Positions 1,478 to 46,590 of a stretch of 64,000 nucleotides of DNA are shown one piece after another. Position numbers and translations under genes: made by a program. The notes beneath the pieces are model-generated. The model made no database searches. It was not told where the DNA came from and saw only the letters and a list, made by a program, of their open reading frames with translations. Each line of letters starts with the position of its first letter. Position 1 is the stretch's first letter. Source of the stretch: Carboxydocella thermautotrophica. GTDB lineage: Bacteria; Bacillota; GCA-003054495; Carboxydocellales; Carboxydocellaceae. The DNA lies in NCBI GenBank assembly GCA_003054495.1, contig CP028514.1, positions 2,062,001 to 2,126,000 on the forward strand, read 5' to 3'.

Positions 1478-1509
1478 GAAAAAAACTTCGGCCCGTTTTA
1501 GCCGAAGTT
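1478..1509 (-). terminator. Rho-independent terminator of the CopZ-like gene
   Basis: Inverted repeat AACTTCGGC / GCCGAAGTT (1484-1492 and 1501-1509) with an eight-base loop, followed on the reverse strand by a run of seven T. The stem includes the last codons of the upstream gene. It separates the metal island from the fru promoter. Confidence 0.85.
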
Positions 1510-1983
1510 AATATTTCCCTCCAGTTCCTGAAGATATGCCTGAATCGCCGAACTACAACAGCGTCCCGCCGGGTTTTCGTATTCACAGCGCCTGCCACCC
1601 ATGGCACCGGTGGCCTTGACTATTTCGGCAAAAGTTCTGGCTCCCTTTTCCCAGGCTTCCCGGATCTGTCCTCTGGTTACCCCCTTGCAATAACAGAGGG
1701 GAACATCCAGCCCCGGGTCCTTCCACCAGACCTTGACTGTCAGGGCATCGCGGCCAAAAATCTGACCCAGCTCCCGGTGAAAATAAACCACCTGGCATTC
1801 CGGATTCTGACAGAGATGATAGTCTTCCTCCACAATCTGTTCGATTAGTCCGGTTTTGAGCAGATTGCGTAAAGTACGGGGGCTTACGGGCTGCCCCTCA
1901 TTTCCACAGATAGGGCAGCGGGGAATTTGATTCTTTTCTCCGCAACCTTCCTGGCTACAACAGGCTTGTCCACATCCGGCCAT
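1498..1983 (-). CDS. CopZ N-terminal-domain-like [2Fe-2S]/zinc metallochaperone
   Basis: A 161-residue, cysteine-rich protein that matches the layout of the zinc and [2Fe-2S] domain found at the N-terminus of Archaeoglobus CopZ: CPICGNEG near residue 23, CQNPECQVVYF near residue 58, CYCKGVTRGQIREAW near 97 (a BFD-like 2Fe-2S motif) and NPAGRCC near 138. The copper-binding HMA domain of CopZ is absent. A further cysteine cluster, CGQACCSQEGC, sits at the extreme N-terminus and could bind soft metals. It lies on the same strand downstream of tnpB and the merT-like gene, so a role in mercury or copper handling is inferred, not shown. The ribosome site is weak. Confidence 0.8.
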   Translation of the reverse strand: MAGCGQACCSQEGCGEKNQIPRCPICGNEGQPVSPRTLRNLLKTGLIEQIVEEDYHLCQNPECQVVYFHRELGQIFGRDALTVKVWWKDPGLDVPLCYCKGVTRGQIREAWEKGARTFAEIVKATGAMGGRRCEYENPAGRCCSSAIQAYLQELEGNINFG

Positions 1984-2235: not shown

Positions 2236-3726
2236 TCACCGTACGGACAGGGCCAATAACTTCAGGTCAGACCAGACGGAGTTATACGCCTCCTGCTCAC
2301 TCTGGGCAAGCCCGTTATGCACAGAAAGCCTCTCCTCCAGCCGCCTCAAGCAGGCCCTGACCCCACGGGTCATCCCTTTTCCTTCCCCAGGTCTATCAGG
2401 ATTAACCTTCCGGGTCAGGTTTTGCTTGATTTGCGATACCAGTTGCCTGAGTTCTTCAGTCACCCGTTCCCTGAACCCCATTGCCCGGCGTCCTATAACC
2501 AGTGCCGCCGCACAATGCACCGGAACGGCGTAACGTTTCATATACTTCCAGTAACCTATGGTTGAAGTATGCCGGGGTGATACTAACTTGAAAGGCACCC
2601 CTTCTTTTGTCGCTCTCCGATACATTGCTCCTACCATTTTCGCAAATGGAAAATTGGAGGCCATGCGGTTAAACTTTTTATTAGTGTCCAGTCTGTCTTT
2701 GCTAAAGTTCAGGTTTTCTAAAACAATGGGTTTGCCTGAAAAGAAAGCTATATCTACCATTACTCTGGCTAAAACGCCTATCAGGTAGCTACGCCGGAAG
2801 CTGGAAGCATGGGCTAAGTCTGGTATTCTGATATAAAGAAAACCGTTCGGGTAAGGGATAACCTGAAACTCTCCTTCGTACTTGCCCAGGTTGCCGGGAT
2901 AAGGAACGCTGAAACCCTCCGGCCACGGCTCCGGCTGGCCGGAAGCGCTAACGTTACACAGGGCTACCCCATCAGGGTTTGTGTCTATAGCCAGACAACC
3001 TTTAGCAAAGTCCGGTTCCTGCACCCTGACCACTTCAAATGTCAAATGTACCAAGTAGCGTCCTTCATAAAATATCTTAATGTTGGGGTTGCCTCCCTTG
3101 CTCTCGTCTCCCCGGGAGTAGAGGCGGTTCCTGCGGGCGTGCCGCCATTTTTCACGGGCGGCCCGGCCCTGGCAGACCTTTTCCCACAGCCTTCTGCCCC
3201 CAAAGACTACCTCTGGTATTGTACCCTTCTCCCGGTAATCCTTCAGTTCAGCCAGCCTTTTTGCCAGTGAAACCACCCGCTTGTTCCGCCCCTTGACTGC
3301 CAGGCGGAGCTTTTCAATAACTTCTGAAGCAGCCCCCTTTTCCTCTGCCTTCGCCAGTTTCCTCATAGCCAGGCTGAGCTTCTTTCTGGCCCGGCCCAGT
3401 TTCTTTTCTGTTTCTTCATTTTCTAACTTCAGCAGTTCTGTTTGGGAGTCCAGCAGGGCCTGTGCTTTAAGTCTGGCATCATCCGCATAGCGGGAGTTCA
3501 GCCCGAAAAGTTCTTGTCCTGCCTTCTTGATTTCATGGCGGGAAGCACCTTCCAGGAGCCGGTTAAAGGCCCACCGCATACAGGCACAGAAGAGACGCAT
3601 CTCCGTAGTCAGCGGGTCTTCTTCACCCCTGCTCCACTTCGAAGACCGGTGAGCCGGGTAAATCTCTGGAAAAAACTCCCTGCACACAGTTATGCTAAAT
3701 TTGTTCTTCTCGTGTTTCATTGACAT
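2236..3726 (-). CDS. TnpB-like (IS200/IS605 OrfB-type) protein with variant RuvC
   Basis: A 496-residue protein with a basic coiled-coil-like N-terminal half (about 85-165) and a C-terminal RuvC-type region. RuvC-I is GCLAIDTNPDGVALCNV (Asp present, near 245) and RuvC-II is PIVLENLNFSKDR (Glu present, near 345). At RuvC-III, where TnpB normally has D-x-N-A-A, this protein reads VPVHCAAALVIGRR, so His stands at the acidic position; the usual CxxC zinc ribbon is also absent. I recall similar TnpB-related proteins with H-x-AAA in Firmicutes, so this may be a subfamily trait. No tnpA is adjacent. It sits between the merT-like and CopZ-like genes, as if inserted in a metal operon. Start: ATG at 3726 with GGGGAG upstream; a second ATG two codons in is possible. 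Confidence 0.75.
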   Translation of the reverse strand: MSMKHEKNKFSITVCREFFPEIYPAHRSSKWSRGEEDPLTTEMRLFCACMRWAFNRLLEGASRHEIKKAGQELFGLNSRYADDARLKAQALLDSQTELLKLENEETEKKLGRARKKLSLAMRKLAKAEEKGAASEVIEKLRLAVKGRNKRVVSLAKRLAELKDYREKGTIPEVVFGGRRLWEKVCQGRAAREKWRHARRNRLYSRGDESKGGNPNIKIFYEGRYLVHLTFEVVRVQEPDFAKGCLAIDTNPDGVALCNVSASGQPEPWPEGFSVPYPGNLGKYEGEFQVIPYPNGFLYIRIPDLAHASSFRRSYLIGVLARVMVDIAFFSGKPIVLENLNFSKDRLDTNKKFNRMASNFPFAKMVGAMYRRATKEGVPFKLVSPRHTSTIGYWKYMKRYAVPVHCAAALVIGRRAMGFRERVTEELRQLVSQIKQNLTRKVNPDRPGEGKGMTRGVRACLRRLEERLSVHNGLAQSEQEAYNSVWSDLKLLALSVR

Positions 3727-3871: not shown

Positions 3872-4168
3872 TTATAGAGTTCGAACTGTAGTATAAAGCA
3901 AAATTCCCACAGCCATTAAAGTAGAAACCCATAAGATAACTTTATTATACTTATTATCGCTAGGATTTTTCGAGGCCCAATAATGAGACATACCCAACAG
4001 TATGATAGTTAAAATAAAAAAGAGTGTCCGATACCTGGACAGGGAAGCTGCTAAAATACTACTGAGGCCACTTAGACCAAGTGGTACCAATATAACTGGC
4101 CCCAGTCAGCAAATAGATGCGAAGAAAGCGGAGAATACTGAACCGATGCTGGCTATTTTCTCTTTCAT
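3872..4168 (-). CDS. merT: MerT-like mercuric transport protein, probable selenoprotein (UGA codon 21)
   Basis: Inner-membrane carrier of Hg(II) by family. Starting at ATG 4168 (AGGAGG upstream) the frame reads MKEKIASIGSVFSAFFASIC, then TGA at 4106-4108, then LGPVILVPLGLSG and two more hydrophobic segments, ending at 3872. In MerT the conserved pair in the first helix is Cys-Cys followed by a G-P motif; here the second Cys is the UGA. A stem-loop with an E. coli-like GGUCU apical loop follows (separate entry), so selenocysteine is the favoured reading (98 residues in total, a little shorter than MerT at about 116). A nonsense mutation is the alternative. Downstream of merR on the same strand. 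Confidence 0.8.
4068..4105 (-). promoter_or_regulatory. Putative bacterial SECIS element of merT
   Basis: Immediately 3' of the UGA, the reverse-strand RNA can form CCACUUGGUCUAAGUGG (4068-4084): a six-pair stem with loop GGUCU, 28-32 bases after the UGA. The E. coli fdhF SECIS loop recognised by SelB also contains GGUCU. An alternative, longer outer stem (CUGGGGCCA with UGGCCUCAG) starts right at the UGA. No selB, selC or selA is in this window. Confidence 0.6.
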
Positions 4169-4213
4169 ATATTTTTTTCCTCCTCTATCTACAATAAAAT
4201 GGGCAGTTTTAGG

Positions 4214-4303
4214 TCATGCCCAGGACCTTAAGCCCAGGACCTTAAGTCAGCAGCCACCTTTACAGTGAGCTACCGGCCGCAACATATACCGTTTCCTCAG
4301 CAT
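4214..4303 (-). CDS. Tiny cysteine peptide ORF in the mer locus, possibly read through UGA
   Basis: ATG at 4303 is seven bases after a strong AAAGGGAGGG. It encodes 18 residues ending ...RPVAHCKGGC, then TGA (4247-4249). Read as selenocysteine the frame continues for ten more codons to a second TGA at 4214, giving a CKGGCU motif. The bases after the first TGA are two tandem copies of a 14-mer. Unlike merT there is no convincing SECIS loop, so an 18-residue metal-binding peptide, a leader peptide, or a decayed gene are equally possible. Confidence 0.35.
4218..4245 (-). repeat. Tandem duplication of a 14-bp unit
   Basis: GCCCAGGACCTTAA occurs twice head-to-tail (4218-4231 and 4232-4245) between the cysteine-peptide stop/UGA and merT. 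Each unit includes part of CTTAAG, so the two copies can pair with each other in RNA. Confidence 0.85.
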
Positions 4304-4380: not shown

Positions 4381-4779
4381 TCAATCATCTTTTAAAGTTT
4401 CAAGGATTGGACATTCTTGTAGCTCTTCCTTATTGGGACAGCGTTCTTTCAATTCGTTCAATATTTTTTCAATCCGTCTTAAATCTTTTATTCGTTGTTG
4501 AACTTCATCTATTTTTTGAGAAATAAAATTATACATATCCTTACATCGAATTTCACCTTCATCTATAACCTTTAGTAAGTTATGAATTTCACCCAGAGAA
4601 AACCCTAGTTCCTGCATGCGTTTAATAAAAAATATACGCTTTACAGTCTCTTCCGAGTACATTCGATACCCAGAATCTGTTCGTAAAGTTTCTTTGATTA
4701 ATCCTTTTCTCTCATAATACCTGATAGTTTCTTTATTGACATTACATTTAACAGCCAGTTCACTAATACGATATTTCAT
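4381..4779 (-). CDS. merR: MerR mercury-responsive regulator
   Basis: Activator/repressor of mercury genes; 132 residues. Winged HTH at the N-terminus (YRISELAVKCNVNKETIRYY, residues 3-22) and a dimer coiled coil. The three mercury-ligand cysteines of Tn501 MerR (82, 117, 126) have spacings of 35 and 9; this protein has IRC, ERC and QEC with exactly those spacings, which makes a mercury sensor much more likely than ZntR or CueR. Start is ATG 4779 with AGGGGGTGAT upstream; a longer frame to 4839 would run into the operator. It is the first gene of the reverse-strand mer transcript, as in Gram-positive mer operons. Confidence 0.93.
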   Translation of the reverse strand: MKYRISELAVKCNVNKETIRYYERKGLIKETLRTDSGYRMYSEETVKRIFFIKRMQELGFSLGEIHNLLKVIDEGEIRCKDMYNFISQKIDEVQQRIKDLRRIEKILNELKERCPNKEELQECPILETLKDD

Positions 4780-4801
4780 CTTATTATCACCCCCTGGATA
4801 A

Positions 4802-4833
4802 AGTATAAACCCTGTACTACGGTACAGGGTCAA
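4802..4833 (-). promoter_or_regulatory. MerR-type promoter/operator
   Basis: Reverse strand: -35 TTGACC (4828-4833), a 20 bp spacer, -10 TATACT (4802-4807). Inside the spacer is a perfect 8-4-8 dyad CCCTGTAC-TACG-GTACAGGG (4810-4829). The over-long spacer with a central dyad is the hallmark of promoters twisted open by MerR-family activators. It drives merR and, on the same strand, the peptide and merT. Confidence 0.92.
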
Positions 4834-18896: not shown

Positions 18897-20219
18897 ATGA
18901 GTCTCCTGCAAAAATTCATGGCTAAGGCCAGAACAGAGCCATCATTGCTGCTGGTCTGTGCCTCCACCCAGCATATGTTGAAAGCAGACCACGCCTTGCG
19001 GGAAGCGGGAATTGCAACGGAACTGCTGCCTACTCCCCGGGGCATAGGTTCAGCCTGTACCACTGTCATCCGCTTTGCTGCCAGCCACCGGACCGAAGTG
19101 GAAAAAATCCTGGCCGCTGAAGCCATTGAGTGGGAAGGCATCTATCCTTATTCCACCCAGCCCCGGCGCATCGACTGGTCACCAGTCTATGCCTACCCCC
19201 TGGCCGCTGATTACCGGGAATTGCTGCAGCGTCTGGAGCGGGAAGAACCCTTGAGTCAGGAGGAGCTGGCCCGTTTACTGGCTGTGCAGGATGAAGCGGA
19301 AGAACAGGCTTTGCTTACCGCCGGTGATCTGGTCCGCCAGGAATGTGTAGGCGACATGGTGGATATCCGGGGTGCCATCGAGTTTTCCAACTACTGCCGT
19401 AAAAACTGTTACTACTGTGGCCTGCGCCGGGATAATACAGTTCTGCCCCGCTATCGCATGAGCGAAGAGGAAATTCTGGCCACAGTGGATGAAATCTACC
19501 GTCTGGGCTTGCGCACCGTGATCCTGCAATCGGGCGAAGACCCCTATTATACTACGGAAAAAATCCTGCGTCTCATCCGGACCATCAAGGAAAGATACGG
19601 CCTGCGCATCACCCTCAGTCTGGGAGAACGCAGGGCGGAAGAATACCGGCTACTTCGGGAAGCAGGGGCCAACAACTATCTGCTCAAACTGGAAAGCGGC
19701 TCCCCCTGTCTGTTTGCAGCCGCCCATCCTGATGATGATTACGGGGAACGGCGGCGACATCTGCAGTTAATCAAACAGGCCGGACTTTTAAGCGGATCCG
19801 GCAATATCGTGGGCCTTCCCGGGCAGACAGTAATGGACCTGGCCGCCGATATTCTCCATTTTAAAGATGATGGCATTCACATGATCGGTATCGGCCCCTT
19901 TTTACCGGCAGCCAATACCCCCTGGGCCGATCAGCCGCCAGGGGATTTGCACCTCTGTCTGCGGGTAGTGGCCCTGACCCGGATAGTCTGCCAGAATGTT
20001 TTCCTGCCCGCCACTACCGCTATGGCTACCCTGCATCCCCGCGGCCAGGAACTGGCTCTGCGCGCCGGTGCCAATACCATTATGTTGATTATGACCCCAC
20101 CCCAGTACCGGGGTAATTACCAGATCTACAGCAACAAAAATCCCGTCAATCTCAACTATGCACTGGAGCAGATCGCCCGGGCCGGCCGCCGGCCCCCCCG
20201 GTATCTGCGCCAGGGATGA
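18897..20219 (+). CDS. hydE: HydE radical SAM maturase with N-terminal DUF3343 domain
   Basis: 440 residues. Residues about 15-80 (SLLLVCASTQHMLKADHALR, then LLPTPRGIGSACTTVIRF) match DUF3343, a small thiol-carrier-like domain related to putative Se/S carriers. Residues about 95-440 are HydE: SNYCRKNCYYCGLR near 163 binds the SAM cluster, with VGLPGQT and a C-terminal barrel end. HydE processes the synthon that gives the H-cluster precursor. Stand-alone HydE is about 350 residues, so the extra domain is a true fusion. It follows hydG by 12 bases. Confidence 0.93.
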   Translation: MSLLQKFMAKARTEPSLLLVCASTQHMLKADHALREAGIATELLPTPRGIGSACTTVIRFAASHRTEVEKILAAEAIEWEGIYPYSTQPRRIDWSPVYAYPLAADYRELLQRLEREEPLSQEELARLLAVQDEAEEQALLTAGDLVRQECVGDMVDIRGAIEFSNYCRKNCYYCGLRRDNTVLPRYRMSEEEILATVDEIYRLGLRTVILQSGEDPYYTTEKILRLIRTIKERYGLRITLSLGERRAEEYRLLREAGANNYLLKLESGSPCLFAAAHPDDDYGERRRHLQLIKQAGLLSGSGNIVGLPGQTVMDLAADILHFKDDGIHMIGIGPFLPAANTPWADQPPGDLHLCLRVVALTRIVCQNVFLPATTAMATLHPRGQELALRAGANTIMLIMTPPQYRGNYQIYSNKNPVNLNYALEQIARAGRRPPRYLRQG

Positions 20220-35389: not shown

Positions 35390-35688
35390 AAATAAAATAA
35401 GCTTCGTCCCAAAATAATGGGACGAAGCCTGTGCTCCGCGGTACCACCCAGTTTCCGGCTGATAGCCGGCACTCATTAAGCATACGGGACCGTAAGTCCG
35501 ATATGCCCCCCGGGATAACGGTCAGGGTGACCGGCCGCACCTACTGGCCGAAATGGCGTTCAGCTGGCTGCTCAGGAGGGAACTTCGCTACGGCTAACCT
35601 GGCAGGGCTTCCAGTCGCCGACCCCGCCTCCCTGGGAGGTATGACCCGTGCTACTTTTCTCCGTCATCGCTTTTTATTACTTTGTTTG
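35390..35688 (-). promoter_or_regulatory. T-box leader, specifier UUC (Phe)
   Basis: Reverse strand: stem I begins GATGACGGAGAAAAGTAGCA; the T-box GGGTGGTACCGCGG lies at 35436-35450; the terminator GCTTCGTCCC / GGGACGAAGC (35401-35428) is followed by a T-rich run. Aligning stem I with the thrS leader of this window (both have GCCCTGCCAG then 16-17 bases) puts the specifier at complement 35580-35582, which reads UUC. Uncharged tRNA-Phe should thus switch on aroF-pheS-pheT. Confidence 0.92.
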
Positions 35689-46321: not shown

Positions 46322-46590
46322 ACCAAAAATAAAAAGCTTTCATCCCTATGGGACGAAAGCTCTGCTTCCGCGGTTCCACCCAAATTGTTTTGCCAGCTGG
46401 CAAAACCTCTCCATCCCGATAACGGCGGGCGCCGTCCGTCACTACTCACCAACCGGTTTTGGCAACGGCACTCCGGGGTGGTTTCATCTGCTCCTCTCCC
46501 TGGCAGGGCTTGCAGCCGGTGACCCCGCCTCTCTGGAAGGAGGTAAGAGAGACTACTTATCCCCATCCTCGCTTTCACTTGATTATACAT
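46322..46590 (-). promoter_or_regulatory. T-box leader of thrS, specifier ACC (Thr)
   Basis: Reverse strand: T-box GGGTGGAACCGCGG (46369-46382), terminator GCTTTCGTCCC / GGGATGAAAGC (46336-46360, one mismatch) then T-rich, and stem I with GATGAAACCACC whose ACC at complement 46480-46482 is the specifier. A promoter with -10 TATAAT (46589-46594) and a weak -35 TTGCAG (46612-46617), spacer 17, sits at the end of the DUF445 gene. Uncharged tRNA-Thr would allow read-through. Confidence 0.93.

Follow-up and report, generated by a model that had tools for sequence, protein, structure and literature searches.

A MerT-family gene with a conserved in-frame UGA, very probably a selenocysteine codon, in Carboxydocella thermautotrophica, and the small reading frame and pseudoknot of its leader

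The 64,000-nucleotide stretch of Carboxydocella thermautotrophica DNA analysed here, called the window throughout, carries a short gene of the mercury-transporter family MerT in which the second cysteine of the characteristic Cys-Cys pair is encoded by UGA. On the sequence evidence laid out below, this codon, the 21st of the frame, is very probably decoded as selenocysteine and the gene is a genuine selenoprotein gene, hereafter merT(Sec). Sec-containing MerT proteins are a kind already known, and the window gene is a well-supported further example of it. The features discussed are collected in Table 1.

Table 1. Location of the features of the merT(Sec) region and of the clusters of two MAG relatives
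Feature	Position	Strand	Basis or content
merT(Sec), 98-residue MerT-family membrane protein with a Cys20-Sec21 pair	3872..4168	-	PF02411, NCBIfam, alignments
In-frame UGA, very probably read as selenocysteine, residue 21	4106..4108	-	same alignment column in homologues
Bacterial SECIS hairpin CCACUUGGUCUAAGUGG, 6-bp stem, GGUCU loop	4068..4084	-	pair counts, codon-recoding control, published rules
Shine-Dalgarno of merT, AGAGGAGG	4179..4186	-	sequence; 10 nt 5′ of ATG
Conserved H-type pseudoknot	4197..4230	-	covarying pairs; 3′ end 29 nt before merT ATG
14-bp tandem duplication, TTAAGGTCCTGGGC twice, of the pseudoknot 5′ half	4218..4245	-	sequence; also in the species' second genome
18-codon ORF MLRKRYMLRPVAHCKGGC plus stop, unnamed conserved peptide family	4247..4303 (coding 4303-4250)	-	homologue searches
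merR, Hg(II)-responsive regulator	4381..4779	-	TIGR02051, 170.6 bits, above cut-off 150.85
MerR-type operator/promoter: TTGACC, 20 bp with dyad CCCTGTAC-CGTA-GTACAGGG, TATACT	4800..4833	-	sequence
TnpB-like gene, between merT and CopZ-type gene	2236..3726	-	NF040570, 105.3 bits, above cut-off 100
CopZ-type zinc/2Fe-2S metallochaperone, Cys form NPAGRCC	1498..1983	-	family matches
Cluster of MAG relative L031	610-3389 of L031		merT(Sec), HMA lipoprotein, CopZ-type protein
Cluster of MAG relative L034	3109-4524 of L034		merT(Sec), HMA lipoprotein, CopZ-type protein

The merT frame reads MKEKIASIGSVFSAFFASIC-U-LGPVILVPLGLSG..., with the residues ...FASIC immediately 5′ of the UGA, which is the only one in the whole frame, and with 77 residues following it before a TAA. 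When the UGA is read as a residue, the product scores 35.0 bits against the PF02411 (MerT) profile, above the gathering cut-off of 32.9, and in a six-frame search of the genome, where UGA is seen as a stop, the same profile yields 27.6 bits, below that cut-off. The NCBIfam model merT_RC607 (NF033560) is matched at 3.9e-25 and 88.1 bits, under its curated cut-off of 130; the MerT of a Cytobacillus plasmid is likewise low on this model, with 82.5 bits. The fusion model MerT_CopZ_Se (NF045683) gives 29.2 bits, below its curated cut-off of 375. The classical MerT model aligns without gaps, its positions 12-66 matching residues 8-62 and its columns 24-25 matching Cys20 and U21, so that the vicinal Cys pair of the MerT first helix is present if Sec is counted as Cys. 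The sequence-only reading of this DNA had described a MerT-like frame with a TGA at the second Cys of the pair, a good Shine-Dalgarno and 77 open codons past the TGA, and all of this is borne out by the profile matches, the ungapped alignment and the frame itself. Its expectation that standard gene callers would report just a truncated tail of 72 codons also held, as ORF calling returned only a 72-aa piece started at TTG; in other words, the protein is overlooked by gene callers that cut at UGA. A sequence search of the PDB found no relative of the protein, and AlphaFold predicts its structure poorly, with a mean pLDDT of 56.

An open frame past a stop is not rare, and the case against chance therefore rests on comparison with homologues. 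Among 399 genomes of the phylum, 33 MerT-like frames were found in 26 genomes, and 31 of the 33 hold exactly one in-frame TGA. This TGA occupies one and the same column in all 27 distinct TGA-bearing sequences that were aligned, which is the outcome of the comparison at the TGA that the sequence-only reading had proposed. At the level of the order, each of the eight MerT genes sampled from four genomes has a single TGA. In this MerT subfamily, as sampled across the phylum, a UGA is therefore the usual state and not exceptional. The source genome itself encodes a second MerT with 44% identity to the first, one TGA being present in each. This second Sec-MerT paralogue, located at C1:2468522-2468812 (-) and followed by a rhodanese-like gene, has the motif CIA-U-LGP, in which the residue preceding U is Ala and not Cys. 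A search of genome contigs, run with a single pattern, returned only the MAG relatives and one Cys form, the MerT of a Phycisphaerae bacterium MAG, where Cys-Cys stands at the UGA position; in viral contigs no MerT was found.

The 20-residue peptide before the UGA and the 72-residue tail after it would be all that is made if an old merT had been struck by a nonsense mutation, and the finding of the tail alone by standard ORF calling is what a pseudogene would give. This explanation is scarcely credible, given that in all the aligned stop-bearing homologues the stop is always TGA, never TAA or TAG, and always at the same codon, that the frame past the TGA is intact in them, and that the stem of the hairpin described below is kept through synonymous choice. 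A different stop, or neither Cys nor TGA at this codon, in close relatives, which the sequence-only reading had named as signs of a pseudogene, is not what the relatives show: they keep the UGA codon without decay.

The same reading had also made its claim of a probable selenoprotein depend on selB and selC, and the source genome (2.74 Mb, 99.6% complete) contains selA, selB, selC and selD. Specifically, a tRNA-Sec with anticodon UCA scores 69.7 bits, selA (620 bits) adjoins selB (389 bits), and selD (400 bits) itself has an in-frame UGA at AACAG-U. The claim is now supported by this machinery, by the conserved UGA codon, by the hairpin pairing and by the context of a mercury regulator. UGA is an ordinary stop as well in this genome: among the 42 window ORFs of at least 250 aa, 10 end in TGA, and in most of these another stop follows soon after. 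A second window frame that is open across a TGA, at 20217, was considered and set aside, as it reads, in our own reading of the sequence, as a hydG/hydF junction.

In addition to its tRNA-Sec, the genome encodes a tRNA-Cys with a GCA anticodon (C1:913706-913801), to which the tRNA-Sec model also gives 51.8 bits and which is characterized by a long variable arm and U73. It looks like a selC*-type tRNA-Cys, and related tRNAs with a UCA anticodon have been reported elsewhere (PMC7609411). A tRNA of this tRNA-Sec-shaped kind could in principle insert Cys at the merT UGA, or the codon could be read as Trp. Such decoding is very improbable here, however, since the anticodon GCA cannot read UGA, the UCA tRNA of the genome is the tRNA-Sec, and UGA terminates a good share of the long window ORFs, as counted above.

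A further line of evidence for selenocysteine comes from the RNA just downstream of the UGA. The rules for bacterial SECIS elements foresee a loop of 3-9 nt with a G in its first two positions, a stem of 4-16 bp and a spacing of 16-37 nt (PMC13188914), and the merT hairpin agrees with them in its 5-nt loop GGUCU, its 6 bp and its 27 nt from UGA to loop. The sequence-only reading had placed the hairpin 28-32 bases after the UGA; this is right for the loop, which occupies nt 28-32, and not for the stem, which begins at nt 22. Across 27 ungapped sequences, 142 of 162 possible stem pairs are formed, against 89.6 ± 6.2 (maximum 114) when these six codons were replaced by randomly chosen synonyms in 2000 trials, a control that ignores the relatedness of the 27 sequences. 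Third codon position is paired to third codon position in two of the six stem pairs, and the innermost pair occurs as CG, AU, GC, UA and GU, with 22 double-change cells compared to 7.2 in shuffles. Controls slid along the sequence reach at most 61% paired cells, versus 88% for the hairpin. These aligned sequences indicate that the stem is maintained by synonymous codon choice, far above what random synonymous codons give. Taken alone, the 22-nt hairpin has a folding energy of -6.8 kcal/mol, a little short of the -7.5 that the published model sets, and when a 51-nt piece of this particular merT mRNA is folded by energy, a different structure is preferred, which has a lower stem of 10 bp and reaches -21.5 kcal/mol. 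With an energy that is marginal and a competing fold, the support for the hairpin is its covariation and not energy alone.

Sec-containing Mer transporters, which the sequence-only reading attributed to selenoproteome surveys, are indeed on record: among the Sec proteins listed in reviews is a 'putative mercuric transport protein' of PF02411, ABB16073.1 (PMC9312934, PMC13188914). This protein is, like the window MerT, a MerT-family member with Sec; its motif is given as C/SxxU (PMC13188914), as against CU in the window protein, a comparison of the motif as printed. MerT_CopZ_Se (NF045683) also has a MerT part with Sec and links MerT to CopZ-type proteins, whereas the window MerT stands alone. 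With classical MerT (NF010314) the window protein shares the N-terminal half, including the CC-L-G-P motif, and differs from it in having UGA for the second Cys, no other Cys, and 98 instead of 116 residues.

Plasmid-borne MerT proteins, expected to be Cys forms, turned out to carry UGA as well: a tblastn search against plasmids gave no match at E 1e-3, and at E 10 it found them. UGA-bearing merT genes are present on Enterococcus and Bacillaceae plasmids (L180, L181, L182 and 16 plasmid records), and 13 Enterococcus plasmid records contain it with an identity of 99.7-100%. RefSeq plasmid proteins of Cytobacillus firmus, Alkalihalophilus pseudofirmus and Enterococcus faecalis (WP_250634606.1, WP_250634608.1, WP_252100557.1) have the same UGA codon and 43-47% protein identity to the window MerT, their genes being annotated through the UGA with a codirectional merR upstream. 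The hairpin of the E. faecalis plasmid gene is identical to that of the window. The plasmid operons, of the order merR-merF-merT-...-merA, differ from the window in that they include merF and merA and have no small ORF and pseudoknot annotated. E. faecalis has been reported to possess SelD and to lack SelABC (SelA, SelB, tRNA-Sec) and YbbB (PMC2432076), so that the UGA merT is presumably not readable in full in that host.

Two MAG relatives, L031 and L034, carry what look like selenoprotein-rich mer clusters, in which merT(Sec) is followed by genes for a MerP-like HMA lipoprotein, whose motif is GIT-U-xx-C, and for a CopZ-type protein, whose motif is NP[AT]GR-U-C; in L031 only, a MerB-family lyase gene with an in-frame UGA is also present (Pfam MerB, 3.2e-28). 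The CopZ-type proteins near the merT of the relatives thus read NPAGR-U-C or NPTGR-U-C where that of the window has NPAGRCC.

In the window, merR lies upstream of merT on the same strand, and merR with its operator shows 73% DNA identity to the plasmid merR. Beside merT there is neither merP nor merA in the window, and no bona fide merA is found in the source genome, where the best candidate reaches 356 bits and the MerA cut-off is 454, so that the textbook role, Hg import coupled to reduction, is at most a possible one here. From this context and from the protein family, we infer the following course of events. Following exposure to mercury, MerR would sense Hg(II) and activate the promoter upstream of it. 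A ribosome translating merT would then insert selenocysteine at UGA 21 by means of SelB, Sec-tRNA-Sec and the SECIS hairpin, giving a short MerT whose first membrane helix bears the Cys20-Sec21 pair. This pair would bind Hg(II) as a thiolate-selenolate and pass the metal across the membrane. Selenolates bind Hg(II) more tightly than thiolates do. For this reason, the selenium of a Cys-Sec transporter would serve to hold the metal and not to catalyse redox chemistry; moreover, because the protein has no Cys besides Cys20, the Cys-Sec pair would be its sole soft-metal site.

Mercury is probably the main substrate, as judged from the sequence context. The protein might instead serve mainly another soft metal or an organometal, or act as an exporter and not an importer, as could be suggested by the want of a clear merA, by the CopZ-type neighbour, by the ArsR-like and ArsA-like genes (named from sequence only) beside merT in L034, and by the rhodanese-like gene adjoining the second paralogue. 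We regard this as rather unlikely, since the window merR scores above the cut-off of the MerR equivalog and is accompanied by a mer-type operator, and since a MerB-family gene is part of the cluster of a relative.

The leader of merT holds a second finding, which is less expected than the Sec-MerT and merits a study of its own. Between merR and merT lies an 18-codon ORF with homologues at E 0.1 or better in 56 of the 399 phylum genomes, the weakest of them being doubtful. The consensus of the peptide is M[LF][RT]K-x-[YWF]-x-L-R-x-[VT]-A-H-C-x-x-G-[CH]. Over 57 distinct copies, variation is greatest at the third position of the codons (1.41 bits, compared to 0.72 and 0.55), and synonymous differences are far more numerous in the frame of the ORF than in the other two; in the first 21 copies, the residues R3, R9, A12, H13, C14 and G17 are constant and their codons vary. 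The ORF was also considered as a second Sec peptide (GGC-UGA), and this was rejected: position 19 is UGA, UAG or varied sense codons among the homologues, so that the UGA of the 18-codon ORF is a plain stop.

In most copies, a pseudoknot follows the ORF at a fixed distance of 8 nt, regardless of codon 19. Its second stem covaries, one pair being seen as CG, UG, GC, AU, GU and UA; the first stem, GUC/GAC, is invariant, and its pairing is thus not proven. A covariance model finds the pseudoknot in 51 of the 399 phylum genomes, with one to three copies each, and neither it nor the ORF is matched by any family in Pfam, NCBIfam or Rfam. An exact pattern detects it, without the ORF, in 28 stretches of viral contigs (L183-L210), some contigs having several copies. 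In several of these (L186, L191, L201, L206, L208) it stands directly before tRNA genes, and in others a start codon with a Shine-Dalgarno follows at 23-41 nt. The idea of a regulator specific to merT was discarded, as the neighbours vary by genome and some copies have no downstream gene on that strand.

The core of the pseudoknot, GUCC...GAC..UAAACU, resembles coremin, an exonuclease-resistant motif known in plant viruses (PMC5869530, PMC10520033). In particular, hairpin 1 of coremin, GUC/GAC, and its UUAAAC-type spacer (PMC10520033) have their match here, the GUC, GAC and AAAC columns being invariant in 46 sequences. The separate hairpin 2 of coremin, with the loop consensus YGAD/YGNNAD, is absent; instead, an 8-nt loop C-YGGGCA-D pairs with a 3′ segment. 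By this analogy, and tentatively, the merT leader may carry a member of an undescribed element composed of a translated ORF and a pseudoknot, the latter corresponding in bacteria and phages to coremin. It would block a 5′-3′ nuclease, possibly RNase J, so that the RNA that follows it, in this case merT, would have its 5′ end both set and protected, and it would be gated by translation of the metal-motif peptide. Owing to the 14-bp duplication, two alternative pairings of the pseudoknot could form. Leaders of another type are present elsewhere in the window, where two T-box leaders lie at 46346-46578 and 35415-35676 (-).
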